Origin: a virus
Reading direction: 5' to 3' (one strand)
IMG/VR virus record: IMGVR_UViG_3300048118_000028
Coordinates: 1-22,535 of that record
DNA: 22,535 nt
Shown here: positions 10,380-21,386 of the stretch, in pieces
Position numbering within the stretch: position 1 is the first letter of the stretch
Layout: each line of letters starts with the position of its first letter
Position numbers and translations under genes: made by a program
Notes under the pieces: model-generated
Databases searched by the model: none
Told to the model about the DNA's origin: nothing
What the model saw: only the letters and a program-made list of their open reading frames with translations

Positions 10380-13300
10380 TTATTCTAATCCAAGATCTTT
10401 TTTTAATTTCTCTTCGTTATCAGCGAAGTTTTCTACTAGGTCTTCTAGTAACATTAGTTGATTTACATCTAGTGTCCACATATCTTTTTCATTTATTTTA
10501 AAATAATCTAAGGCTCTTCGTAGGTCTGCTTTCTTACCTTTATTCTTTACGTTAAAGATAAGCTTGGTCTTTTTTTCTTCTGGATCAATAGACCTATCTA
10601 AGGCTTCTAAAGAATCCTTCTTAGCTATGGACAATATGTCTGTAAGAGTGTTACGTTTCTCCCTTAAGGATAGACTGTCCCACTGACCACTATCGACTAC
10701 AGAATCTGCATAGATTTCCAAACGTGGACGGACATACCTATTAAAAACATTAACTGCTTCGGGAGACTTACTCCTTATCTCAGTTTGCCACTGAGGTTTA
10801 CCAACATCATTATACAGTTTTTGAATAGTGGTTGAAGGCAGCACTTCCCTGTAACCAGAAAGTCTGCCAATAGGGACTTGACCAGGTTCTCTTGTAAGAG
10901 CTTGTTCCTTCTCTGTCGTAGCCATACCGACACGACTCTTCATCTTATCTGGATCAACAGAAGCATCAGCTAATACCTCAAAGATCTGATCCATGTATCT
11001 AAGGGAATCATTGACAACTTTATTACCCTCTTTCTTATCAACTACTTTATAATCCTCTCCCCTAGCCATAGCAACAGCTTGGTTGATTGGGTCAAACCTT
11101 CTAGTAAAACCTGATACGTGTTGTGAAGTTAACTCTCCAAGAAACGTCCCAGCTACTTCTAGAAATTCTGTATCTTCAGCTTCACCAGCAAGGTAAAAAA
11201 CTTTACCTACTATACCAAAAGCTTCTCCCATATCGTCAGTTAAAGCACGAGTACCAAAGTTATCTCCAAAAGCTACAAGAAGATCTTGTGGTACTGACCC
11301 ATCACGTATTGCATGAGCACCCATACGACCTACAAGCATTGGAACATTTCTTGGATAGTCGTAGAGGTAACTTTTTACAGCACCAAACTCATCTCTATCT
11401 TCATACCAAGCAAGCCCTTCTTCTAAGTTATCTATCTGAGATGCTGTTGCTATCGCTACAGTTCCCCAACCTACAGCTGTTTTAGTACTGAGATCCATTG
11501 TATCCCTAGTAACAATATCTTTACCACCAGCTTTAATTGTATATTTATTAAGTAAACTTAAGCCAGAGTGATCTAACATAAATGCAACACTATTATTCCA
11601 GAATTGTCCAAACGGAGCTAATGCACCAAGCACAGGCACTGACCTAACGTTTTCAATTATGTTTGCAGTTTGACCTACTAGATCGTCTTGACTACCAAAT
11701 TTTTTAGAGAAGGTATTCCTTAGTGCATTTTGTACAGCTCTAGCTTCAAGTTCAGCAAACTCTTTGAATGCCTCTGATCCTGGCTCAGATAACAAACCGA
11801 CAAGATTTGGATCATCCATAAACTCATGATAGGTTTTGTTATACTTAAGTCTAATTTCTCTATCCAAAGAGTATTGAAACTCTTGCGTTTTTGTCAAAAA
11901 GTCTTGAGCTTTAACACCGTAAGCTGTCTCAAAAAAGTTACTAAATTTTTGATAATTACTTTTGTTTGGAATCTCTTTTGGGTTGAGTTTAAACTCATCT
12001 AAAATACCTTTGAGTTCTACTCCACCATTAATATATCTAAACAACTCTTGCTGTGCACCTGGACGAATAGCAAGATAGTCCATAACAGATTCATAAGTTC
12101 CGTAAGCATCAACCATATTACGTACCTTCTGTCTTTGAAGGCTCATCATTTGAGTAGCTAAATTTTTGTATTTAAGTGCATTTACACTATCACCCTTTAG
12201 GGTATTAAACACAGAACCACCACCATACAGAGCAGCACGAATCATATCAGATGCACTTTGATTTATTGTTGCAGCTTTCCAACCAATAGCGTTTAGGCCT
12301 GTGGTTCCAGGATGAGTAACAATAGCTCTTACTAAATTTTCCTGTACGTTTACTAAACGTTCACCAAAAGTTTTCTTTATTCCTTTTTCTAAAGGATCTA
12401 AAGTTGCCTTAGCTGCTTTTTCTGCAGGTGTTTTTTTAGGGTCAAGCCCCATAGCCTGAAGACGTTTAGCTATCTGAGACTCTACGTTTAATCGTTGACC
12501 TGCCTCACTTGCTGTCTTTGCACCGATATTTAAAAAGTCTTCAAAAGAAAAATCCTTAAGTTGATCTGAAGAATCACGAAGTATCTCATAAGCTTCTTCT
12601 ACAAGTTTTTTATTTTGTGATGGCATATCTTCAAGTGCTTCTTTAATATATAAAGAAACCTGCATGTCCTCTGGTTTTTTATAGCCAGCCTTACTTAGTA
12701 CAGAGGCTACACCATCCCAACCCTCTTCTTCACTACCAATAAAAAACTTCAAGGCAAACTCGGTGTCGTAATCTACAGAAGTCTTAGGGTTGTCAGAAAC
12801 CTTAGTAAGTTTTTTACCTTCCTTAACCATCCTAGCCCAAGTAGTTGTTCTTTCTTTTAGTTCAAAAAGTTCTTGAGCTAACTGTTCAGAAGATAGTTTT
12901 TGTAATCCCTCAAACTTTTTAACTTGACCAGCTCTATGTAGTTGTATTGAAGCTAGAGGTATGGCCTTCTTGTTCTTAAGATACACTAAACCAAGTTGTG
13001 TTGCTCCACCCAATGCACCAGTAGCTGTAGATATACCAGCTTGAAAGGGGTCTATCTCCTCTTTAAATCCAGATATAACTTCTGCTTTTTGTTGTGCTAC
13101 ATCGAGTGCACCAGCAGAGACCATATCAAAACCAAGAGAACCATAGATAGATTTTCTATCCGCTTTATCTAATATAGCTTTAGTCTTAGACTTTTTTAGT
13201 GCCTCTTGATAAGCTCTTTGAGTAACTTCAGTTTGAACTTTAGCTGCAGCTTTTTTACTGCCAGTTCTTTTTAACTCTTTTGTTGCTGCCTGTCTACCAA

Positions 13301-13853
13301 CCCTAAAGGCTAATTCTTTAGCTCCCTGTACAGCAGTTTTACTGGCACCTATACTAAAGAGCTTACCCGCACCAAGAGATACTATATTAATTGGGTCTAC
13401 AATAAGTGCTCTAGCGTAGTCGTATACAGCATCAGCTTTTTCTCCAGTGGTTCTGTCTTTGCTAAAGGCACCACTTAAAGAGTCAAACAATTTGTAAGCA
13501 TCTTGTGCAGCTTTACGTTTGTTAGCTAACTTAGCATCATCACCAGTGTTTAAAAAGGTAAGCTCACTTAAGGTTATTAACGACTGACCAGAATTAAAGC
13601 CACGCATATGATTTACATAGTCATTAATAATGTCTTCTTTATCATTCTCAGAGGTATCCATACCATGTCTCTGGGACATGTACCGTTCAATAACTTCAAA
13701 GTTATCATCAACAGATAAGGTTTCTACAAGACCTTTACCCTCTGTTTTTGTAGGTTCAAATCCTTCAGGTACAGGTTGCGTATCTTCTATAACTTCATCA
13801 TCCAACTCAGTTGGAGTCGAAATAGCCCTTAGTTTATCTGCGTAGCTGGTCAC
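10380..13853 (-). CDS. Large internal virion / DNA-ejection protein (T7 gp16-like position)
   Basis: At 1157 aa this is the largest gene and the last of the leftward structural operon. Start is GTG (13851-13853), with GGAG about 9 bases upstream at the end of the previous gene; no ATG is available before residue 59. The N-terminus is acidic and disordered (TELDDEVIEDTQPVPEGFEP). Residues about 150-170 (DPINIVSLGAGKLF) and 275-300 (TATGALGGATQLGLVYL) are hydrophobic Gly/Ala-rich stretches. Between and after them lie Lys/Ala-rich helices. The C-terminus is helical and charged, with SLSLREKRNTLTDILSIAKK. No lysozyme motif is visible, and that activity sits in the separate 256-aa gene. Size, helical character and position suit an ejected inner-core protein. 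The specific role is inferred. Confidence 0.65.
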   Translation of the reverse strand: MTSYADKLRAISTPTELDDEVIEDTQPVPEGFEPTKTEGKGLVETLSVDDNFEVIERYMSQRHGMDTSENDKEDIINDYVNHMRGFNSGQSLITLSELTFLNTGDDAKLANKRKAAQDAYKLFDSLSGAFSKDRTTGEKADAVYDYARALIVDPINIVSLGAGKLFSIGASKTAVQGAKELAFRVGRQAATKELKRTGSKKAAAKVQTEVTQRAYQEALKKSKTKAILDKADRKSIYGSLGFDMVSAGALDVAQQKAEVISGFKEEIDPFQAGISTATGALGGATQLGLVYLKNKKAIPLASIQLHRAGQVKKFEGLQKLSSEQLAQELFELKERTTTWARMVKEGKKLTKVSDNPKTSVDYDTEFALKFFIGSEEEGWDGVASVLSKAGYKKPEDMQVSLYIKEALEDMPSQNKKLVEEAYEILRDSSDQLKDFSFEDFLNIGAKTASEAGQRLNVESQIAKRLQAMGLDPKKTPAEKAAKATLDPLEKGIKKTFGERLVNVQENLVRAIVTHPGTTGLNAIGWKAATINQSASDMIRAALYGGGSVFNTLKGDSVNALKYKNLATQMMSLQRQKVRNMVDAYGTYESVMDYLAIRPGAQQELFRYINGGVELKGILDEFKLNPKEIPNKSNYQKFSNFFETAYGVKAQDFLTKTQEFQYSLDREIRLKYNKTYHEFMDDPNLVGLLSEPGSEAFKEFAELEARAVQNALRNTFSKKFGSQDDLVGQTANIIENVRSVPVLGALAPFGQFWNNSVAFMLDHSGLSLLNKYTIKAGGKDIVTRDTMDLSTKTAVGWGTVAIATASQIDNLEEGLAWYEDRDEFGAVKSYLYDYPRNVPMLVGRMGAHAIRDGSVPQDLLVAFGDNFGTRALTDDMGEAFGIVGKVFYLAGEAEDTEFLEVAGTFLGELTSQHVSGFTRRFDPINQAVAMARGEDYKVVDKKEGNKVVNDSLRYMDQIFEVLADASVDPDKMKSRVGMATTEKEQALTREPGQVPIGRLSGYREVLPSTTIQKLYNDVGKPQWQTEIRSKSPEAVNVFNRYVRPRLEIYADSVVDSGQWDSLSLREKRNTLTDILSIAKKDSLEALDRSIDPEEKKTKLIFNVKNKGKKADLRRALDYFKINEKDMWTLDVNQLMLLEDLVENFADNEEKLKKDLGLE

Positions 13854-13855
13854 TA

Positions 13856-14848
13856 TTAAATCTCCGAAAGAGTGTCTAAATAAGTTTGATCAAGACCAAA
13901 ACCTAAATCGTTTGTAAATACAGCGGCTGCTAGTCCTCCCCTAGCAATAAAGCTTAATGCTATGCTAGGGTCTAGTTTCATCATAGCTTTATAAGCTTCG
14001 TAATTTTTATCGTCAGCTAAAAGATCTTCTATCTTTTTAATTTCTTTTTGTTTTTCTCTAACCTGACCAAGGGTTAAATTCTCACTTACTTGTTGACTAT
14101 CAGGTATTGTATTATCATAATCACCCAAAATATTAAGTGTCTGAGTTTGTATCTCAGCAAAACTTTCGTCATATCTACCCTGTACAGTTTTTTCCATCTC
14201 GTTTATTTGTTGAACTGTATAGTCTTCTTGTTCTGCTAATACTCCAAGGTCAGTTGTAACTCCTAGTGGACCTTCCTTACGACCTTTAATTGTAGGAGCA
14301 GAAACACTAGCTTCAATATCTGCACCTGTAACACCCATAATATTAGAAGAGTATACGTCATACATAACATCTTCTAAGTCTTTTGGACTAAAGATCTTAC
14401 CAAGTATTGTAGACTCTTGTTGTTCGGGCTTCTTAATCTTTGCACCGGTAACAAAGTCCGGTGTAGCTTGTTTAATTAGATCTGCAGCAGATACATCACT
14501 AGGTGCAGCATAATTAGCGGCTTGAATTACAGCATCATTAAGGATTGTTTCGTTCAGTCTACCCTCTAACTCAGCAGCTTGTGCAGCTGCAGCTATCCTT
14601 AAAAGTTCTTTTGGATTTTCAGACAGTATCCCAAGAGAAGACTCTTTATCCAGACCTTTTGAATCTAGGTAGTCATAAGCAGCTTCAAGTTTTGTGCGAG
14701 ACTCTTGAACTTCTTGCTGCCTTTTAAGTCCAGACTTCCACAAGTACTCTTGCATAGCATCTGATTTAGACTTAGTATATTCTCTGTTTTCTTTCATCCT
14801 ATCGGCTAAACCGCCTAAGAATGATCCACCTAAAACTGCACCTAACAT
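13856..14848 (-). CDS. Putative internal virion protein, 330 aa
   Basis: The product starts MLGAVLGGSFLGGLADRMKE, a Gly/Leu-rich amphipathic N-terminus, followed by long helical, charged stretches (KSDAMQEYLWKSGLKRQQEV; KLEAAYDYLDSKGLDKES) and an Ala-rich block (LLRIAAAAQAAELEG). A second half with EQEDYTVQQINEMEKTVQGR is again helical. Such a Gly-rich membrane-active start plus helices is common in phage core proteins that enter the cell envelope during DNA injection. GAGG precedes the ATG, which is two codons into the end of the upstream gene. It sits directly before the 1157-aa gene. No named family recognised; the ejection role is inferred from context. Confidence 0.55.
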   Translation of the reverse strand: MLGAVLGGSFLGGLADRMKENREYTKSKSDAMQEYLWKSGLKRQQEVQESRTKLEAAYDYLDSKGLDKESSLGILSENPKELLRIAAAAQAAELEGRLNETILNDAVIQAANYAAPSDVSAADLIKQATPDFVTGAKIKKPEQQESTILGKIFSPKDLEDVMYDVYSSNIMGVTGADIEASVSAPTIKGRKEGPLGVTTDLGVLAEQEDYTVQQINEMEKTVQGRYDESFAEIQTQTLNILGDYDNTIPDSQQVSENLTLGQVREKQKEIKKIEDLLADDKNYEAYKAMMKLDPSIALSFIARGGLAAAVFTNDLGFGLDQTYLDTLSEI

Positions 14849-14851
14849 ATC

Positions 14852-15376
14852 TTACCTCGCCATTAAACCTTTTGGTTTTACTTCTTCTTCAACTGGTGAT
14901 TTTTCTTGAGGCATAGCCTCCGCCGTAACAGCTTCTTCAGACTCTTTTAAGAGTGCGTAGCCTTTATCCTGTTGATCTTGTGGGGTAGCTTTGTTGGCAG
15001 CAACAAGCATAGCTGCACGTTCCATTGGATCTACCTTAGGTTCTTCAAAAGTTTCTTGATACTTTACTCCAGCTTTATCAGCAGCCTTCATGATAAATTT
15101 TCTTACTACAGGCTCTGCAATAAGACTGATGTCAATAGTATGAATACCTTTTGCTACTGCACCAGTCATAATAGAATCACTTAAGTTTTTAGCAGGTACG
15201 CCAAAGTCCAGAGCAAAGAAAACATTATCAATAACCTCTTCGTCAGAGATGCGATCTATATGATAACGGATAGCCTCATCAGGATCTGTTATTTGTGGAG
15301 GTCTTTCCCAAGGAAAGTTTTTAGGCTCGTCAGTTAAAGACTGTCCAGGAATTGCTCCTTGAAGTGACTGTATCAT
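14852..15376 (-). CDS. Virion-module protein of unknown function, 174 aa
   Basis: The ordered part (residues about 15-125) reads NFPWERPPQITDPDEAIRYH, ISDEEVIDNVFFALDFGVPA and TGAVAKGIHTIDISLIAEPV, ending KFIMKAADKAGV. The pattern PWE-xP-P-x-[IF]-[TS]-DP-x-EA recurs in structural gene clusters of marine phages as far as I recall, with no known role. After residue 128 the chain becomes low-complexity and acidic (KESEEAVTAEAMPQEK, VEEEVKPKGLMAR), likely disordered. The ATG shares one base with the lysozyme stop (TAATG), so the two are translationally coupled. It may be a minor virion component or an assembly factor for the ejection proteins. Confidence 0.6.
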   Translation of the reverse strand: MIQSLQGAIPGQSLTDEPKNFPWERPPQITDPDEAIRYHIDRISDEEVIDNVFFALDFGVPAKNLSDSIMTGAVAKGIHTIDISLIAEPVVRKFIMKAADKAGVKYQETFEEPKVDPMERAAMLVAANKATPQDQQDKGYALLKESEEAVTAEAMPQEKSPVEEEVKPKGLMAR

Positions 15377-16146
15377 TACTCTTCTCCTGCGTAGTAGTTA
15401 GCTTTAGACACTCTTCTTTCCATCATAGGTTTCCCTGGTCTTAAATACCCCTGTGAAAATATACGAGCTGCTTCTTCTGCAGTTTCAGTTTCTTGTAACT
15501 TTTTCATAAACCTTCCTTCAGAAGTGTTTTGGACTTCGTGTACAAAAAAACCAAAAGATGCTTCGTAAGAATCTGGATTTAAATTATTTTCTTTTGACCA
15601 AGATTCAAATGCTTTTCTCCTTGGTCCAGTCCACATTGCAAAACCTCTACCACCTTTAGAGCCAGGAACTACAGGTTTTATTTCTTGCAAGTAATTAAAC
15701 CCGCCTGTTTCATGATCAAAGTTACCTACTATACCTGCAGCTTGAAAATCTGTTAAGCCAAAGACCTCTGATACATCTCCCATAAGCCTTTTACCAACAT
15801 CTTCTTTGTTAGCATCTTTAGTCATAGTTTTAGATGTATCAGACACAGCAAGATTTTTCTTAGCCTTTGCTAGTTCAGGTGCATCTTCTTCAAATACTTC
15901 ATTGAGTATTGTGTCCCAACCTTGTTCCCAAGAAGCAACTTGATTAGCAGTACTTTCTTGAAAAGTTCTTTTTACTTTGTTTATTTCACCCTGTGCACTA
16001 GGTACACTTAAAGTATCAGCTCTTGCCCTACTTCTTGAAGTACCTAAACCTAAAGCGGAACTAGGACTTTCTATTGCTGCAGTATCTTTACTAAGTAAAG
16101 CGTTTTTCTTTTTTCTTTTTCTATCTTGCTGTAGTGACAACGACAT
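15376..16146 (-). CDS. Virion-associated lysozyme (phage tail lysozyme domain)
   Basis: Residues about 132-245 form a phage tail lysozyme domain (Phage_lysozyme2 type). The signature is FQAAGIVGNFDHETGGFN, with E146 as the likely catalytic acid, then GSKGGRGFAMWTGPRRKAFE, the GG-x-G-[IF]-A-x-W-T-G-x-R-R motif, and later a FVHEVQNT helix. The first 130 residues are Lys/Arg/Ser-rich and unstructured, with RKRKKKNALL at the start, probably a virion-docking or linker region. There is no signal peptide, so the enzyme is most likely carried in the particle to open peptidoglycan for DNA entry rather than being the lysis endolysin. AAAGGA precedes the ATG. A holin-linked lytic role cannot be excluded. 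Confidence 0.85.
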   Translation of the reverse strand: MSLSLQQDRKRKKKNALLSKDTAAIESPSSALGLGTSRSRARADTLSVPSAQGEINKVKRTFQESTANQVASWEQGWDTILNEVFEEDAPELAKAKKNLAVSDTSKTMTKDANKEDVGKRLMGDVSEVFGLTDFQAAGIVGNFDHETGGFNYLQEIKPVVPGSKGGRGFAMWTGPRRKAFESWSKENNLNPDSYEASFGFFVHEVQNTSEGRFMKKLQETETAEEAARIFSQGYLRPGKPMMERRVSKANYYAGEE

Positions 16147-16157
16147 GCTTAAGTCCT

Positions 16158-19100
16158 TTACGCTATATCTATAATTTTTAAGAAGACCTCTGAAAGAAAG
16201 TCACCAGTTTTTTGTGTAGCTTCAATCTTAGCCTGTAACTCTGCTGCAGTTATTGTTGCATCAGCAGCCATCTGCTGCATTATAATTTGAGTAGCATTGC
16301 TTGCATTACTTTCTGCAGTTTGAAATGCTAATGACATTATGTCACGTTCACGTTGCCATACTGCATCTAAGTTGGTTTGAGTCATAGCATTTATAGTTGC
16401 TGCAAAAGAAGCATTACTTTCGTTTTGTGCAGCAGTGTTAAGTGTAGCTATATTTTGTCTCCACTGAGCATTAGCTTGAGCTACCACTAAACTATTCGTA
16501 GCATTAAATGTATCACGTTGTTGCTGTAGATTAGAGTTAAACTCACGAATAGAATTTATAGAGTTTGTATTAAACTGATTTACAGAATTAGTTTGTGATG
16601 CATTAAACTGTGAGGTCTGTGCAGACAAAGACGAAAAGAACTGTCTGGTCTGGTTTTCGTTAGCAGCATTAAATTGTGCAGCAGCATTCTCAGCAGCTTG
16701 ATCAGTAAACAAAGACTGAATGTTTTGTTGAGCTTTAAACATTGCAGTTTGCTGTTCATTATTTAGGTTAGCCATATCCATAGCTAAAAAGTTCTGAGCA
16801 TTTTGTACTGCAGCTTGTTGTCTGTTGTTTAGGTTAGCCATATCTAAGTTAGCTAAAGAACTAGCTTCTGCCATAACCATAGCTTGACGATTACTTAGGT
16901 TAGCAAGGTTCATAGTATTTACTGCACGAGAGTTCTCAAGAGCTATATTCTGCTCTGCAGTAAAGTTCATATTAGCGATGTCACCAATACGAGCTGAGTT
17001 CTGAACACGAGCTTGAAATGATTGATCAAACTCTTGACCCATAAACTGTGCACGTTGTTGTGCTGCAAGCATAGCACGTTGTTGACGGTTTGACAAGTTC
17101 TGAGCTTCAAATTGTGCAACTGTTTGTGCATCAGCTTGAGCAATGGGTAAAGCAGATTCCATAGCAGCTTGAACTAAAGCTTGTCCAGCCATAGAAGAAG
17201 CACCTAAACCACGAGCAGCCATAGTAGCTGTAGCATTACGCATTGCACCAGCAGCCCATGTAGGTGTAGCACCACCTTCAAAGTCTTGCATCAGGCCCTC
17301 TAGTTGGCCTTGTACAGTGGCTTTACTTGATGGGGTAGCTTCAGCAGCTTGTACTTGTTCAGTAAATGCAGCAGCCTTTTGTGCGTCTGCAGCACCACTA
17401 ATTAGTTCACCTTGTTGTAGCTCACGTTGTACAGGATTCTGCATCTTAAATGCAGCACCTTGAGCAGCTTCAAGGTCTGACACAGCAGACTTATCTTGTT
17501 GCTGAGCTTGTATTTGAGCTTCTTGTCCTACTTGACCTTGAGCAGCTTGAAGGTTTCTTGTCTCTGCTTGTACAAAAGGAGTAATTGTACCTGCTTGATA
17601 AGTGCTTGCGGGAACATAGGTAGGAGCCTGAGCTTGAGCTACTTGTCCTACTGTAGCAGCTTGAGTAGTAGGTGCAGTACCGTACACTTGACCAGCAGTA
17701 GGTGAAATCATCTGATCATCAGTAGCTTTCATATACTCTACAGGAGCTTGCATAGGCTGCATAGTTTGTTTTAAAGTGTCTCCAAACATAGGTACAACAT
17801 CTGAATGATAACCTATAGTATCGCCACCAACAGCAAGACCACGAACCATACCACCACGAGCCATAGCTTGTTCATACATACCCATACGAGCACCTGCTCC
17901 AGGGTTTGCCTTAGCAAAGTCGGTAAGTCCAGCTACAGTCTTTGGTCCTTTGTAACCTAAGAATTTTGTAGCTAATTGGTATTTAGCATCTAAGTTAGTA
18001 TCACCACCTTCAGCATAACCAACTACACCACCTTGTGCCATAGCCATCTTAGAAAACCCTGGGGGTACGTAAGTTACAGCCTTACCATCAATTTCAGTTA
18101 CTGGCAATTGCTGACCTCTTTCATTTGAATACATTACTGTTTGACTCATCCCCGTTGTCGTAGCTGAAGGAAGTGAAATTGTTTGTGGTATAGCACCCTC
18201 TATATATCCTGGTGCAAATACTTTAGATCCTTCATCAGCAGTTTCTGATGCTACAGTTGTAGGTCCAGATAAAGGAGCAGCTTTACCTTCTTCATACCCT
18301 GGAGGATTATACACAGAAGCACTTTCTCCTGTAAATGGAGTAGGAGCAGATGAGTAGCCTTCACGATCTCTTAAATACCCTGCAGCCTTACTTGCCTCTT
18401 CATTACGACGAGCTTTTTCAGCAGCTATCCTAGCAGCCTCTGCTTCTGCTGCTTTACGAGCTTCTTCAGCTCTACGTCTTTCTTCTTCAATACGTTGTCT
18501 TTCAGCAGCCTCACGTTGAGCTTTTTCAGCAGCTTCACGAAGTCTTTTTTCTTCTGCTATCTTAGCTTCATACTCTTCTCGAATACGTTTTTGTTCAGCT
18601 ATCTGAGCAAGTCTAGCTTCTTCTTCAGCTCTGGCTTTAGCTGCAGCCTTAGCTGCTTCTGCTTCTTTTCTAGCTTTATCTGCTGCTGCCTTTGCAGCTG
18701 CTGCTTTAGCTCTAGCTTCTTTTGCAGCTTTGGCCTTTGCAGCCGCAGCTTGAGCAGCTTTAGCTTTAGCTGCAGCCTTAGCTGCCGCTGCTTCTTTAGC
18801 TTTAACTTCTGCTGCTACTCTGTCTTGTTCTATCTTCTTAAGTCTAGCTTGCTCTTTAGCCCAAGCAGTGTAACCATTTTCTTCATTAAGCTTAGCACGA
18901 AAGGCATTACCTTCTGCATGGAGTAAACTTTTTTGGATCTGACCCTTACTATTACGAATGTCACGGAAGGCAGTCTTTTTGATCTCACCTGTAACAGAGT
19001 TTTTCATAACTCCAGCTTGCATATAGGTACGGTTGTTGTAGTACTCGTTCCATACCCACTGCCACTGACCAGGATTTTTATCTGGAATCCTAGGTGCTGT

Positions 19101-19313
19101 AGGAAAAGGCATCACTGGGAACTTCCCTACCAACTCTTTAATTTTACTACTTGGCATTTTACCTTTAAGTTTACTTCCCCTATCACTAGAAGAAGCTCCA
19201 GCAGGACCACCAGCAGCATCTTGACGGGCACGATCAGAAGCTCTTTCAGAAGCTGTAGGTTGTCTGTAACCACCTTTTCCATTGTCCCGCATACTATATG
19301 AATATGACGCCAT
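16158..19313 (-). CDS. Large low-complexity repeat-rich virion protein, 1051 aa
   Basis: Starts at an ATG with AAAGGA 8 bases upstream. Layout: a short basic N-terminus; a TolA-like Ala/Lys/Glu/Arg helix at about residues 164-308 (repeats such as AKAAAAKAAADKARKEAEA), probably a long coiled coil; a Pro/Gly/Thr-rich part with two related Gly motifs, GGVVGYAEGGD near 430 and GGMVRGLAVGGD near 487; a Gln/Ala-rich stretch (AQAQAPTYVPASTYQAG); and, from about 735 to 860, degenerate repeats of the type ANLNNRQQAAxxxAQ. An Asn/Phe/Gln-rich end (SQFNASQTNSVNQF) follows, then a helix. This looks like an extended fibrous or tape-like virion part. Position between membrane proteins and lysozyme suggests a tail or core component. 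No named family. Confidence 0.65.
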   Translation of the reverse strand: MASYSYSMRDNGKGGYRQPTASERASDRARQDAAGGPAGASSSDRGSKLKGKMPSSKIKELVGKFPVMPFPTAPRIPDKNPGQWQWVWNEYYNNRTYMQAGVMKNSVTGEIKKTAFRDIRNSKGQIQKSLLHAEGNAFRAKLNEENGYTAWAKEQARLKKIEQDRVAAEVKAKEAAAAKAAAKAKAAQAAAAKAKAAKEARAKAAAAKAAADKARKEAEAAKAAAKARAEEEARLAQIAEQKRIREEYEAKIAEEKRLREAAEKAQREAAERQRIEEERRRAEEARKAAEAEAARIAAEKARRNEEASKAAGYLRDREGYSSAPTPFTGESASVYNPPGYEEGKAAPLSGPTTVASETADEGSKVFAPGYIEGAIPQTISLPSATTTGMSQTVMYSNERGQQLPVTEIDGKAVTYVPPGFSKMAMAQGGVVGYAEGGDTNLDAKYQLATKFLGYKGPKTVAGLTDFAKANPGAGARMGMYEQAMARGGMVRGLAVGGDTIGYHSDVVPMFGDTLKQTMQPMQAPVEYMKATDDQMISPTAGQVYGTAPTTQAATVGQVAQAQAPTYVPASTYQAGTITPFVQAETRNLQAAQGQVGQEAQIQAQQQDKSAVSDLEAAQGAAFKMQNPVQRELQQGELISGAADAQKAAAFTEQVQAAEATPSSKATVQGQLEGLMQDFEGGATPTWAAGAMRNATATMAARGLGASSMAGQALVQAAMESALPIAQADAQTVAQFEAQNLSNRQQRAMLAAQQRAQFMGQEFDQSFQARVQNSARIGDIANMNFTAEQNIALENSRAVNTMNLANLSNRQAMVMAEASSLANLDMANLNNRQQAAVQNAQNFLAMDMANLNNEQQTAMFKAQQNIQSLFTDQAAENAAAQFNAANENQTRQFFSSLSAQTSQFNASQTNSVNQFNTNSINSIREFNSNLQQQRDTFNATNSLVVAQANAQWRQNIATLNTAAQNESNASFAATINAMTQTNLDAVWQRERDIMSLAFQTAESNASNATQIIMQQMAADATITAAELQAKIEATQKTGDFLSEVFLKIIDIA

Positions 19314-19324
19314 TCTTAAATCCT

Positions 19325-19792
19325 TTATCCGTTCACTACTTCATTAAGACCCCAGATCATTCCTGCTACACCGCCTACGAATATTACTACTCCGACTACC
19401 AGTGATATACCCCAGAACAATCTGTCTCTTTGTTTTGCTTGTAATTCTAACGCTTCTTTGTGTCTTTGTCTAGCTGCTGCTTGTTCTTTTACAACTAGAT
19501 CCCACATTCCTGGTGGCCCATAGAGTTGACAAGCTGACCTTAGCTCGTCCATGCACTCTTTATGTTTCATCTTAGCTTGGGCTATAGCAAACCCTTCTTC
19601 TTCAGATGAGCTTAGTCTACCTAGTGGGCCTTTATGTGCACCCTTTTCAGCTAGTTGAATCTCACTATCTAACTTAGCTAACTTACCAAAGTGAGGCAGT
19701 AAGTCTGCTACATCACTACCAGCTTTAACTGCAGAACTAACTGCACCAGCTATCTTAGTAACTGCACCTGCTAAAGCTAATACTTCTATCAT
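19325..19792 (-). CDS. Protein with C-terminal transmembrane segment, 155 aa
   Basis: The first 25 residues are Ala/Gly/Val-rich (VLALAGAVTKIAGAVSSAVK), amphipathic, followed by a helical region with two Cys (KHKECMDELRSACQLYGPPG). A basic/Gln-rich helix (EQAAARQRHKEALELQAKQR) leads directly into a strong membrane segment at residues 125-149 (LFWGISLVVGVVIFVGGVAG), ending in a short tail. It is therefore a tail-anchored protein with most of the chain likely in the cytoplasm or virion. Similar layouts with a conserved [Y/H]G-x-[PK]-x-[MA]-W-[DE] element recur in marine phage virion modules from memory. Its neighbour downstream is the 1051-aa virion protein; upstream is another one-TM protein. 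A lysis or injection role is possible. Confidence 0.6.
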   Translation of the reverse strand: MIEVLALAGAVTKIAGAVSSAVKAGSDVADLLPHFGKLAKLDSEIQLAEKGAHKGPLGRLSSSEEEGFAIAQAKMKHKECMDELRSACQLYGPPGMWDLVVKEQAAARQRHKEALELQAKQRDRLFWGISLVVGVVIFVGGVAGMIWGLNEVVNG

Positions 19793-19806
19793 TATGGCAA
19801 ACCTTT

Positions 19807-20073
19807 TTATTCATTTCTGTCTGCCATCTTTTCTACTGATGATCTTATTGCTTTTATGTTTTCGTCTATACGTGCTAGTGATATTGCTTGGTTTTGTACG
19901 GATACTTCTATGCGTCCAATACGTTTTTCTAGTACGATGATTTCTTCTCTGTTATTCTCTATGTCAGACATCATCATACTGACTGTCCATACGATAGCTG
20001 CTCCCTGAACAAGTAGGCCAAAGATCAGTGTAATCGGTACAGACTTGCTCAAGTGCCAGCTATCTTCAGACAT
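19807..20073 (-). CDS. One-TM coiled-coil protein, holin/spanin-like, 88 aa
   Basis: Residues 11-35 (SVPITLIFGLLVQGAAIVWT plus VSMMM) form one membrane segment after a short polar start. The rest (36-85) is a heptad-like helix with DIENNREEIIVLEKRIGRIE and further Ile/Val/Leu spacing, a probable coiled coil. This N-in one-TM plus coiled-coil shape occurs in inner-membrane spanins and in some small holins, and genes next to the tail fibre often belong to lysis (T7 holin gene 17.5 follows fibre gene 17). The ATG shares one base with the fibre stop (TAATG), so it is translated with the fibre. Without an outer-membrane partner or endolysin in view, the lysis role is inference. Confidence 0.6.
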   Translation of the reverse strand: MSEDSWHLSKSVPITLIFGLLVQGAAIVWTVSMMMSDIENNREEIIVLEKRIGRIEVSVQNQAISLARIDENIKAIRSSVEKMADRNE

Positions 20074-21386
20074 TATTCAGCTTCCAGTGCATCTAGCCGT
20101 GTTTCAATACTTGCAAGTCTTTGCTCTGTTGCAGCGCCAATAAACGATAATAATTCAGGATAGCGAATACCCTTGCGTGTTTGGCTATTACCATCCTCGT
20201 CTTCCCACGTACTACTTACAAAGAAAGCATAATTACCCGCATTTAATCCAGCGTCTGTCATTGCAGTTTCTATTTGTTGGGCAACTACACCCGTATGGGT
20301 ACGAGCATTATCTCCATTTTCCGCAACACTGCTGTTCCATTTAAATGTTTTAAACAACTTGCTGATGGCTTTAGCTGCGGTAATCTCTGCATCTATTAGA
20401 GATGCAATCTGTTGCTTTTCGTTTGCGTCAGAGGTTTGGATCGTGCCGTTGGTGGCGTACACATCGTCAAAACGATTTCCTACTGTGCCTAAGTCCCTAG
20501 AGTTATCCACTGTTGGATATATAGCACCATTGTAAAGCCAATAGTACGGGTTAGTCGCATCCCCCCCAATACCTGTATAAATGCTGCTGCTATAAAAAAC
20601 CATGCCGCTGCCTTGAAACGAAATTCCACCTTTAGCGTCGCCGTCTTTGTAGAACTCTGCAATGGTGCCCTGTGAGGTTTTACGGTTTAAACGAATAGCA
20701 ACTGCGCCATCTGAAGTAGCCGTAATCTGACCGTTGACTATTGTTACACCATCAGTGCCAATACTTTGAACAGTCTTACCCACAAACAAGTTACCGTCGC
20801 TGATGCGCATGGCTTCTGAGCCGTCAACTTTAAACTCAATATTAGTTGAACTACCTGCTGCTGTTGGATCAGCATCAAGAATTAACGTGTTGTTGTTTTT
20901 AACGTAAATCTGCGAATAGCCACCGTTTCCTGTATAATGGAACGCAAGGCCGCCCCCATCATTAGACCCATGATTGTCTGATATTGTTACTGTGCCGTTG
21001 CCTTTAACCGTAGCCGCAGTACCAGAAGAACCAGTGAATGAAACATCACCGCTGCTGTTGATTCGCATGGCCTCTAAGGCAGAGCTAGAGTTGAATACTA
21101 TCGGCGCACCACTGCTAGAGTTACTAGCGTTTATGCTTAAATCAAATGGGCTATCATAGTTCTTCTTAATAGCAGCAAACCTTGATGAGGTAGTCGTTAC
21201 CCCATTGAAATACAAGCTAGAGTAACCTGATGTTGCTTTTAAATGTGCATCACCAACAACCGTAATTTTGGCATCAGGCGAACTCGTCCCAATCCCAACA
21301 TTACCATCCACAGTCAGCCCATCTAAGGTAAGTGTGCCAGCAATATCCTTATCGGCACTATCTGCTAAGTCTCTTGCTCGTGTCAT
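20073..21386 (-). CDS. Tail fibre/spike protein with C-terminal S74 chaperone domain
   Basis: The fibre starts MTRARDLADSADKDIAGTLT, then a beta-repetitive shaft with repeated EAMRI-x-[SD]-[SD]-G-[DN] units and GNVGIGTSSPDAKI, typical of phage fibres. The last 119 residues are a Peptidase_S74 intramolecular chaperone: SDANEK gives the Ser319-Lys324 dyad with the spacing of SDxRLK in known members, then THTGVVAQQIETAM, a Tyr-Pro-Glu-Leu turn (RYPELLSF), and a terminal coiled coil (IETRLDALEAE). In characterised fibres the chaperone folds the trimer and cuts itself off at the Ser. AGGAG precedes the ATG by 6. The gene looks richer in G+C than the adjoining structural genes. The fibre probably recognises the host surface. 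Confidence 0.9.
   Translation of the reverse strand: MTRARDLADSADKDIAGTLTLDGLTVDGNVGIGTSSPDAKITVVGDAHLKATSGYSSLYFNGVTTTSSRFAAIKKNYDSPFDLSINASNSSSGAPIVFNSSSALEAMRINSSGDVSFTGSSGTAATVKGNGTVTISDNHGSNDGGGLAFHYTGNGGYSQIYVKNNNTLILDADPTAAGSSTNIEFKVDGSEAMRISDGNLFVGKTVQSIGTDGVTIVNGQITATSDGAVAIRLNRKTSQGTIAEFYKDGDAKGGISFQGSGMVFYSSSIYTGIGGDATNPYYWLYNGAIYPTVDNSRDLGTVGNRFDDVYATNGTIQTSDANEKQQIASLIDAEITAAKAISKLFKTFKWNSSVAENGDNARTHTGVVAQQIETAMTDAGLNAGNYAFFVSSTWEDEDGNSQTRKGIRYPELLSFIGAATEQRLASIETRLDALEAE

Follow-up and report, generated by a model that had tools for sequence, protein, structure and literature searches.

The window analysed here is a virus record from IMG/VR (IMGVR_UViG_3300048118_000028) of 22,535 bases, classed as linear and therefore probably a fragment, and the gene in question encodes a protein of 1051 amino acids (aa). 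Our preferred reading, which we hold at a little short of an even chance, is that the product is an internal phage protein that would be ejected and form a helical tube or bundle. It is built on gene order, the register of a long repeat, a change of length by whole repeat units, an 11-residue (hendecad) periodicity like that of the phiX174 H protein and an exchangeable hydrolase slot, all of which are observed and from which we infer the place in the virion, the ejection and the oligomerisation. The original prediction had proposed an ejected channel crossing the cell envelope. This is plausible and the best supported of the readings considered, because the protein has a hendecad core, its gene stands in an ejection-like cassette with an exchangeable hydrolase and some relatives carry an S74 domain; the weight that the prediction had put on TolA was not supported.

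In the mechanism proposed, the 1051-aa protein would be carried inside a short-tailed phage as a pilot or ejection protein, packed in the head, and would leave with or before the DNA and help to build a passage through the envelope. Its conserved part would consist of a cap (residues 684–739) followed by one long continuous helix of 11-residue repeats, several copies of which may pack side by side through their seams into a tube or bundle. The uncharged, amide-rich side may be the face that lines the path of the DNA and touches it, in the way that the phiX174 H tube is lined with amides. The neighbouring hydrolase would open the peptidoglycan, and the 174-aa protein and the very large proteins encoded further on would form the rest of the complex.

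The open reading frame (ORF) had been predicted at 1051 aa, which stands, and its actual strand is the minus one. It runs from an ATG at 19313 down to 16158, with AAAGGAT immediately 5' of the start, and the plus strand of the same interval has many stops throughout. A tblastn search of 50,697 phage records found a relative in 26, none of them covering 80% of the query, with the N-terminal part unshared. The matches include HMO-2011 gp25 (two HMO-2011 records; 52.5% identity over query residues 452–1040), ten Roseobacter phages (CRP-2, -9, -13, -1, -345, -603, -207 and others), the Pelagibacter phages HTVC103P, 104P, 115P and 033P, Vibrio phage CHOED, Pseudoalteromonas phage Slicky01, two Aeromonas phages, Rhizobium phages, Sinorhizobium phage phiM6 and one more podovirus. 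These relatives are annotated as hypothetical, except for one called 'huntingtin' and one in a record without annotation. A similar gene order surrounds the homologue in HMO-2011, CRP-2, HTVC104P, phiM6 and CHOED, and it is this kept order, together with the homology of the C-terminal core, that places the 1051-aa protein among the homologues of HMO-2011 gp25, with direct homologues in HMO-2011-type, HTVC103P-type, CHOED and phiM6 phages. The window looks like a piece of an HMO-2011-type marine podovirus. HMO-2011-type phages are described as short-tailed in passages of PMC9038755, and Slicky01, a distant relative of CHOED and HMO-2011, is given a podovirus morphology in passages of PMC10507051.

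Pfam and PHROG scans of the 1051-aa protein returned no informative match. A viral scan yielded 67 loci, from which 73 homologous ORFs, and later 84, were compared; the proteins range from about 460 to 1670 aa, the largest being counted from stop to stop. Four relatives (L348–L351) lie on contigs that were binned in two metagenome-assembled genomes, Flavobacteriales TMED123 and Neomarinimicrobiota MED589; since the same two contig names and sizes recur in both, they are probably misbinned phage contigs.

What had first been described as NNRQQ repeats followed by an Asn/Phe/Gln-rich end is present, and was under-described: from residue 740 to about 1003 the protein is a single array of unbroken 11-residue units, 22 to 24 in number, in one register and with Asn mostly at position 11. 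There is no Pro or Gly between residues 778 and 1036. The Asn period is 11 (and 22), not 7–10, 12–15 or 18, and the autocorrelation of Asn plus Gln peaks at lags of 11, 22 and 33 with nothing at 7. Position statistics were taken from 343 units of 17 representative homologues and compared with 300 shuffles. Asn occupies position 11 in 71% of the units (chi-square 1003.5, against at most 25.2 in the shuffles), charged residues concentrate at positions 4 (37%) and 8 (36%), large hydrophobics at 7, 9 and 10 (54%, 49% and 44%) and Gln, Ser or Thr at 2 and 6 (51% and 57%), the positional bias of every residue class lying above that of each shuffle. When these counts are laid on an ideal 11/3 helix, two hydrophobic seams (1/9 and 7/10) are calculated to run about 164 degrees apart and to divide a charged face, made up of positions 4, 8 and 11, from an uncharged one with Gln, Ser and Thr at positions 2 and 6. 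AlphaFold2, given a 36-sequence alignment, places helices at residues 707–801 and 828–1050, with a pLDDT of 71–87 in 10-residue blocks over about 884–1023 and low values elsewhere; the repeats are probably helical. When the core model was compared with the folds in BFVD, the three matches at E 0.001, two of them unnamed and one labelled 'DUF4214 domain-containing', were uninformative. A CWVAREVYG-type domain ends ten of the homologues, namely HMO-2011 gp25 (L069), L033, L034, L035, L037, L045, L050, L051, L052 and L067.

The homologues change in length by whole 11-residue units. The measure used was the distance from a conserved P (in PxWAx) to a conserved W (in NxxWR), which stand at the two ends of the array; the anchors were loosened twice, and three variants of the second anchor were added after inspection of the sequences, an intermediate step having given 69 of 73 in the class of 3 modulo 11. 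In the first set, 77 of the 84 homologues could be measured and 72 fell in this class. Because the homologues are related, sequence counts are not independent of one another, and each distinct length was therefore counted once as well: seven of eleven belong to the class (201, 212, 223, 256, 267, 355 and 377), the exceptions being 189, 199, 200 and 263. A second set, drawn from four further viral scans and one genome scan, comprised 224 loci, 18 of them lacking a homologue ORF; among the remaining 206, 54 lacked an anchor and 152 were measurable, with 111 of these again at 3 modulo 11. Its distinct lengths, from 212 to 1125, fall in the class in 16 of 22 cases, and those first met in this set do so in 12 of 17 (exceptions 246, 351, 356, 423 and 797). 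The two sets are not fully independent, since some contigs occur twice and one of its loci (L209) matches CHOED at 100%. Taken together, the two sets give 28 distinct anchor distances, 19 of which are 3 modulo 11, against the one in eleven expected by chance. Arrays thus vary from 15 to 102 units (ends counted slightly differently), and the longest (L201) keeps one register over about 1120 residues, with higher-order self-similarity at 55, 110 and 220 residues. In the window the array is probably old, since a tandem repeat search found nothing there at the DNA level. The idea that array length is matched to the host was dropped, as SAR11 phages show both 16 and 30 units.

The same periodicity was then sought in known ejection proteins. 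At period 11 the 1051-aa protein exceeds its shuffles (0 of 60 reach it), and among eight controls only phiX174 H does likewise (0 of 200), significantly so in residues 86–206; T7 gp14, gp15 and gp16, P22 gp7, gp20 and gp16 and phiEco32 gp24 do not rise above 60–200 shuffles. In a scan with 20 shuffles, no period of 11 was found in phiEco32 gp23, 7-11 gp20, DB2_18, a DB2-family protein, a Vibrio phage protein or the P22 tail needle, although the DB2-family protein came near the shuffle maximum (1.76 against 1.77); H alone among the controls rose above its maximum there. The H signal comes from residues 151–194 (0 of 500 shuffles), so that the resemblance lies in the hendecad section of H and in the notion of a helical tube lined with amides, and does not extend to H as a whole. 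In agreement with this, passages of PMC7354561 describe the H tube as decameric, with three hendecads, a transition and then heptads, and with Asn, Gln or Arg at 18 of 23 inward positions. Both proteins have 11-residue helical repeats with amide residues; however, it was periodicity alone that was compared, and the likeness is one of design, not of family membership. H has only three hendecads before its heptads, whereas the array of the window has 22 to 24 and that of a relative 102, and H comes from a tail-less phage with single-stranded DNA. A search of a library of open papers for work on hendecads and phages, judged by title and abstract, found only the phiX174 paper to concern phage DNA delivery.

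The gene of the 1051-aa protein and its homologues, here called the core gene, heads a cassette that, by its order and sizes, resembles known ejection cassettes. Besides the window, a homologue of the 174-aa protein (p174) lies 3' of the core gene in 68 of 72 loci (exceptions L014, L032, L057 and L068), and the slot between the two holds either a protein of at least 200 aa (26 loci) or an ORF of 55–130 aa (42 loci). The small alternative is mostly 62–81 aa long. In the window the slot protein matches PF18013 (E 3.1e-22). When the window and 25 of the 26 loci were scanned, 21 of the 26 proteins matched a peptidoglycan hydrolase family (Phage_lysozyme in 11, Phage_lysozyme2 in 8, Hydrolase_2 and SLT in one each), so that the slot switches between unrelated hydrolase families; the other five gave no hydrolase match, and neither did the 413-aa protein of HTVC104P, which was scanned apart. 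Two larger genes follow p174, with mean products of 459 aa (66 loci) and 1125 aa (62 loci), both very divergent. For the 174-aa model, no PDB structure matched by fold at E 0.001, and none of 28 members of the 1157-aa family, whose window member is the largest protein of the cassette, had a Pfam match at E 0.01. The best profile matches of the 1157-aa family in the PDB (E 2.6e-5 to 8e-5) were to designed helical proteins and were set aside as compositional, the other five of the eight matches being weaker. In HTVC115P the gene directly 3' of the core homologue (HTVC115P_gp46; L125, 4444–4893) is annotated as a toxin-activating lysine-acyltransferase, which hints that an ejected protein might be lipid-modified.

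This layout may be compared with those of T7, P22 and the kuraviruses. According to passages of a review (PMC8954989), the gp14-like gene adjoins gp15 and then gp16, and the position and sizes of the cassette fit this gp14-first order; for the proteins encoded next, homology to gp15 or gp16 is not convincing. As with T7 gp14 and P22 gp7, the gene of the 1051-aa protein appears to come first in a cassette that also encodes a peptidoglycan hydrolase and large proteins; T7 gp14 and P22 gp7, however, are of about 200 aa, against about 460 to 1670 aa for the family described here, neither has a period of 11 and neither shows detectable sequence homology to the core. The same review describes, in part of its text, four or five predicted transmembrane helices in gp14-like factors, which the 1051-aa protein does not have. 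Kuravirus cassettes (SU10 gp20–24 and phiEco32, the latter with a comparable annotated gene order) share the multi-gene layout with a transglycosylase, but the hydrolase is encoded first there and second in the cassette of the window type, and phiEco32 gp23 and gp24 have no homology to the core.

A short motif appears to tie the smaller members of the cassette together. The p174 family ends in GLM (usually GLM[AS]R), invariant in 39 of 39 rows of alignment A3, after an acidic variable stretch, and the motif is also seen in the N-terminal extensions of the hydrolases, in variants such as GLASR and ALLSK, and in the alternative small ORFs. The motif was tested with several patterns. The strict form, GL[LM][SA][RK], was found in 62 of 69 p174 proteins, in 11 of the 42 small ORFs and in 3 of the 27 proteins of the hydrolase slot, with 1 of 73 core proteins, 1 of 67 of the proteins next after p174 and none of 63 large ones, the shuffled means being 0.03–1.2 across the classes. 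A looser pattern gave 63/69, 26/42 and 15/27 in the first three classes and 1/73, 1/67 and 7/63 in the last three. With the broadest, the counts were 61/68, 28/42 and 16/26, while those for the core, next and large proteins (10/72, 5/66 and 12/62) were all under their shuffled means. Among named distant relatives the motif stands at the end of p174 in HTVC033P, ctYwJ313 and CRP-207, and by the same pattern it does not in Slicky01, MQM1, RHph, CHOED, phiM6, CRP-3, CRP-738, HTVC103P or HTVC115P. Of the 206 second-set loci, 63 had a recognisable p174-like ORF, 36 with a loose form of the motif near the end and 27 without it. It is possible that the motif is a docking or packaging signal shared by the cargo proteins of HMO-2011-type phages.

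The S74 domain is a further thread. By Pfam it is absent from the 1051-aa protein itself and present at the C-terminus of 2 of 41 scanned relatives, identified by motif as L054 and L060. It was counted in 5 of the 84 first-set homologues, one of which (CRP-212) had been obtained with a query that held S74, and in 45 of 290 on a wider count, which is inflated because one scan used a peptide pattern from within S74 and because the S74 model was built on seven sequences, four of which were homologues themselves. S74 domains of the type found on these relatives are known from annotated DNA ejection proteins, but also from tail fibres. When phage records that match L060 only in S74 were gathered, 10 of 25 were annotated as DNA ejection, injection or transfer proteins, including those of Salmonella phage 7-11, Cronobacter and Aeromonas phages and a P22-like Vibrio phage, and a further 6 were hypothetical or coil-containing. 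The protein of the P22-like Vibrio phage lies in an apparent P22 gp7 slot, and its S74 C-terminus is of the same kind as that of L054 and L060.

Several results weigh against an ejected tube. A scan with 19-residue Kyte–Doolittle means reached at most 0.88 in the 1051-aa protein, and thus there is no hydrophobic segment like a membrane anchor, unlike in T7 gp14. The most conserved position, the Asn at 11, points towards the charged face and not towards the proposed lumen, and the AlphaFold2 monomer has a low overall score (mean pLDDT 59, pTM 0.22). The whole solved tube of H, residues 151–271, which consists mostly of heptads, is not significant at period 11, as 86 of 500 shuffles reach its value. 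In the second set 41 of the 152 measured distances lie outside the class of 3 modulo 11, 35 of them at 2 modulo 11, all with the length of 200 that CRP-738 has, and 6 elsewhere. An array of 102 units would extend about 165 nm if straight, so array length is not matched to the periplasm, and a role as a periplasmic ruler was dropped. By hmmsearch and hhalign, the core profile has no homology to T7 gp14, P22 gp7, phiEco32 gp23 or gp24, 7-11 gp20 or the Octadecabacter DB2 family, and a PDB search with it matched no sequence at E 1. The two larger cassette proteins likewise gave nothing by hhalign and phmmer against gp15/gp20 or gp16 of T7 and P22; with filters off in hmmsearch, the profile of the last protein reached E 0.0016 with phiEco32 gp24 and 0.05 with T7 gp16, weak at best, and 1 of 28 members of its family weakly matched phrog_342, 'internal virion protein with endolysin domain' (E 1.1e-5). 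Lastly, among the 25 S74-only records there are 8 tail fibres and 1 tail spike or chaperone.

The last point leads to the likeliest of the alternatives, itself an improbable one: that the protein is an outer part of the virion, a trimeric fibre or a rod at the tail tip, its hendecad coil being folded in some relatives with the aid of a C-terminal S74 chaperone. The gene is encoded after tail fibre genes. The S74 domain occurs on trimeric tail spikes, and here it is found not only at the C-termini of relatives and on those 8 fibres, but also on the tail fibre of the window (20073–21386); the very long extended repeats of some relatives would also suit a fibre. However, the domain was found in only 5 of the 84 first-set homologues, CRP-212 with its S74-holding query among them, the ejection, injection or transfer annotations on 10 of the 25 S74-only matches point the other way, and the gene is followed by a hydrolase and the cassette rather than by fibre genes. 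Moreover, the rod-shaped P22 tail needle scores strongly for heptads and not for hendecads. Next in line, and comparably doubtful, is an internal ejection protein that forms a compact folded bundle, or single ejectable rods, with the DNA channel being made of the 330-aa and 1157-aa proteins. The spread of 15 to 102 units and the self-similarity of L201 would fit a folded bundle more easily, and in T7, according to part of the text of PMC8954989, the periplasmic tunnel consists of gp15 and gp16. On the other hand, the asymmetry between a charged and an uncharged face, with two seams, fits side-by-side packing in a barrel, and hendecads do occur in the phiX174 tube.

Two other explanations fare worse. 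A head scaffold or DNA-organising protein that is not ejected would agree with a predicted helical, Gln/Ala-rich protein with no membrane segment, yet a scaffold gene would not be expected to lie behind the tail fibre genes and just ahead of a peptidoglycan hydrolase gene, and we regard this explanation as very unlikely. Scarcely credible is the view of the original prediction that a TolA-like coil spanning the periplasm is the functional core. The long Ala/Lys/Glu helix is certainly there, as predicted (residues 148–311, 164 residues with neither Pro nor Gly; A+K+E+R make up 83% of residues 146–309), and residues 145–310 match TIGR02794 (TolA) at E 2.9e-5. The match scores 23.5 bits, however, far under the curated cut-off of 59.45, and the likeness to TolA is of composition alone, in a protein with no membrane anchor and no Pfam match. 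By a composition threshold the helix is present in 8 of 84 homologues, and its absence from most of them argues against a conserved function; 76 of the 84 thus differ from the window protein in having no such insert by the threshold used, a count that includes 5'-cut ORFs, and 17 of the first 73 ORFs are cut in this way and could hide a helix. Tandem repeats of 12–42 bases underlie it in the DNA (window 18442–18815). TolA homology as the central idea was therefore rejected on its score, its distribution and these repeats. Compared across the homologues, the helix is a clade-specific insert and could be an accessory spacer. As for evidence from particles, a term search of the texts of PMC6918029, PMC9038755, PMC10507051 and PMC11288001 found no virion proteomics of relatives, and the label of virion protein in the original prediction was not confirmed.

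The remaining parts of the N-terminal half were correctly noted at the outset, namely two Gly motifs (beginning at residues 428 and 487) and a Gln/Ala-rich linker (about 501–640). A Gly motif is present in 46 of 56 homologous ORFs that are complete at the 5' end, the window included, against a mean of 1.64 and a maximum of 6 in 200 shuffles, and in 24 of the 56 it lies at residues 45–75. In short homologues such as HMO-2011 gp25, where the motif is at residue 55, a module of about 60 residues that ends in the motif forms the N-terminus of the protein; since this corresponds to window residues 440–500, about 440 extra residues precede the module here. Searched alone in phages at E up to 1, the module found four records from three phages, all of the same protein family, and no explanation emerged for the Gly motifs. 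One homologue (L013) has a (PVEEQ)n repeat in place of the Ala/Lys/Glu helix, reminiscent of the Pro–Glu linkers of TonB-type proteins. The N-terminal parts of L013 and L015 hold DxDxDG sequences like calcium loops, and a profile scan gave dockerin matches in 3 of 41 members and EF-hand matches in a few.

Upstream of the gene are the two small proteins with one hydrophobic segment each (Kyte–Doolittle maxima of 2.43 and 1.92) that had been noted as neighbours along with the lysozyme-domain protein (PF18013), all three of which are borne out. In CRP-3, CRP-738 and phiM6 the place of window 19325–20073 is taken by small proteins together with a lysozyme or endolysin, which suggests that the lysis region of the window may lie here. 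The features are collected in the table.

Features of the window around the gene for the 1051-aa protein (residue numbers are those of the protein named)
Feature	Window position	Strand	Basis or remark
ORF of 1051 aa, homologue of HMO-2011 gp25 (phage1322_25)	16158..19313	-	tblastn and HMO-2011 annotation
Ala/Lys/Glu/Arg helix, residues 148-311, clade-specific insert	18381..18872	-	164 residues free of Pro and Gly; tandem repeats
First Gly motif GGVVGYAEGGD, residues 428-438	18000..18032	-	sequence
Module of about 60 residues ending in second Gly motif, residues 440-500	17814..17996	-	comparison with homologues
Linker containing Gln/Ala/Thr/Pro, residues 501-640	17394..17813	-	composition
Cap PxWAxGA...ARGLGxSSxAG...ALPIAxxDA, residues 684-739	17097..17264	-	invariant or nearly invariant columns of alignments A1 and A2
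Hendecad array, residues 740 to about 1003	16305..17096	-	register, period statistics, AlphaFold2 helices
Variable C-terminal tail, residues 1004-1051	16161..16304	-	S74 or CWVAREVYG-type domains here in some relatives
155-aa protein, one C-terminal hydrophobic segment (phrog_32327)	19325..19792	-	PHROG and Kyte-Doolittle
88-aa protein, one N-terminal hydrophobic segment	19807..20073	-	weak holin match, E 0.012
256-aa peptidoglycan hydrolase (Phage_lysozyme2) with N-terminal extension	15376..16146	-	Pfam; slot families differ among relatives
ALLSK, short-motif variant, residues 16-20 of the hydrolase extension	16087..16101	-	pattern search
174-aa helical protein: conserved N-terminus, acidic variable linker, C-terminal GLMAR	14852..15376	-	alignment
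GLMAR, very C-terminus of the 174-aa protein	14855..14869	-	alignment A3
330-aa protein, very divergent cassette member	13856..14848	-	sequence comparison
1157-aa last cassette protein	10380..13853	-	place and size class of large ejection proteins

A wider proposal, which we consider improbable as it stands, is that these proteins form a separate class of ejection proteins in common marine phages, independent of those of T7 and P22: a strictly modular hendecad rod, its copy number (15–102 units) free to evolve by whole units and in blocks of 55 and 110 residues, that would serve as an amide-lined conduit or an ejectable bundle, with hydrolase, small and 174-aa partners addressed by the GLM[AS]R-type motif. 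HMO-2011-type phages are considered, in passages of PMC9038755, to be among the most abundant and widespread groups of marine viruses, and despite this abundance the gene is annotated as hypothetical in nearly every record. Its product bears on how the envelope is crossed by short-tailed phages that have no recognisable ejection proteins of the T7 or P22 kind. An array of hendecads that is modular in length is a concrete structural prediction, and the natural series from 15 to 102 units offers a handle on what sets the length of such a structure, while the short motif that the cassette proteins share points to a way in which lysins that are exchanged for one another might all be brought to a single complex.

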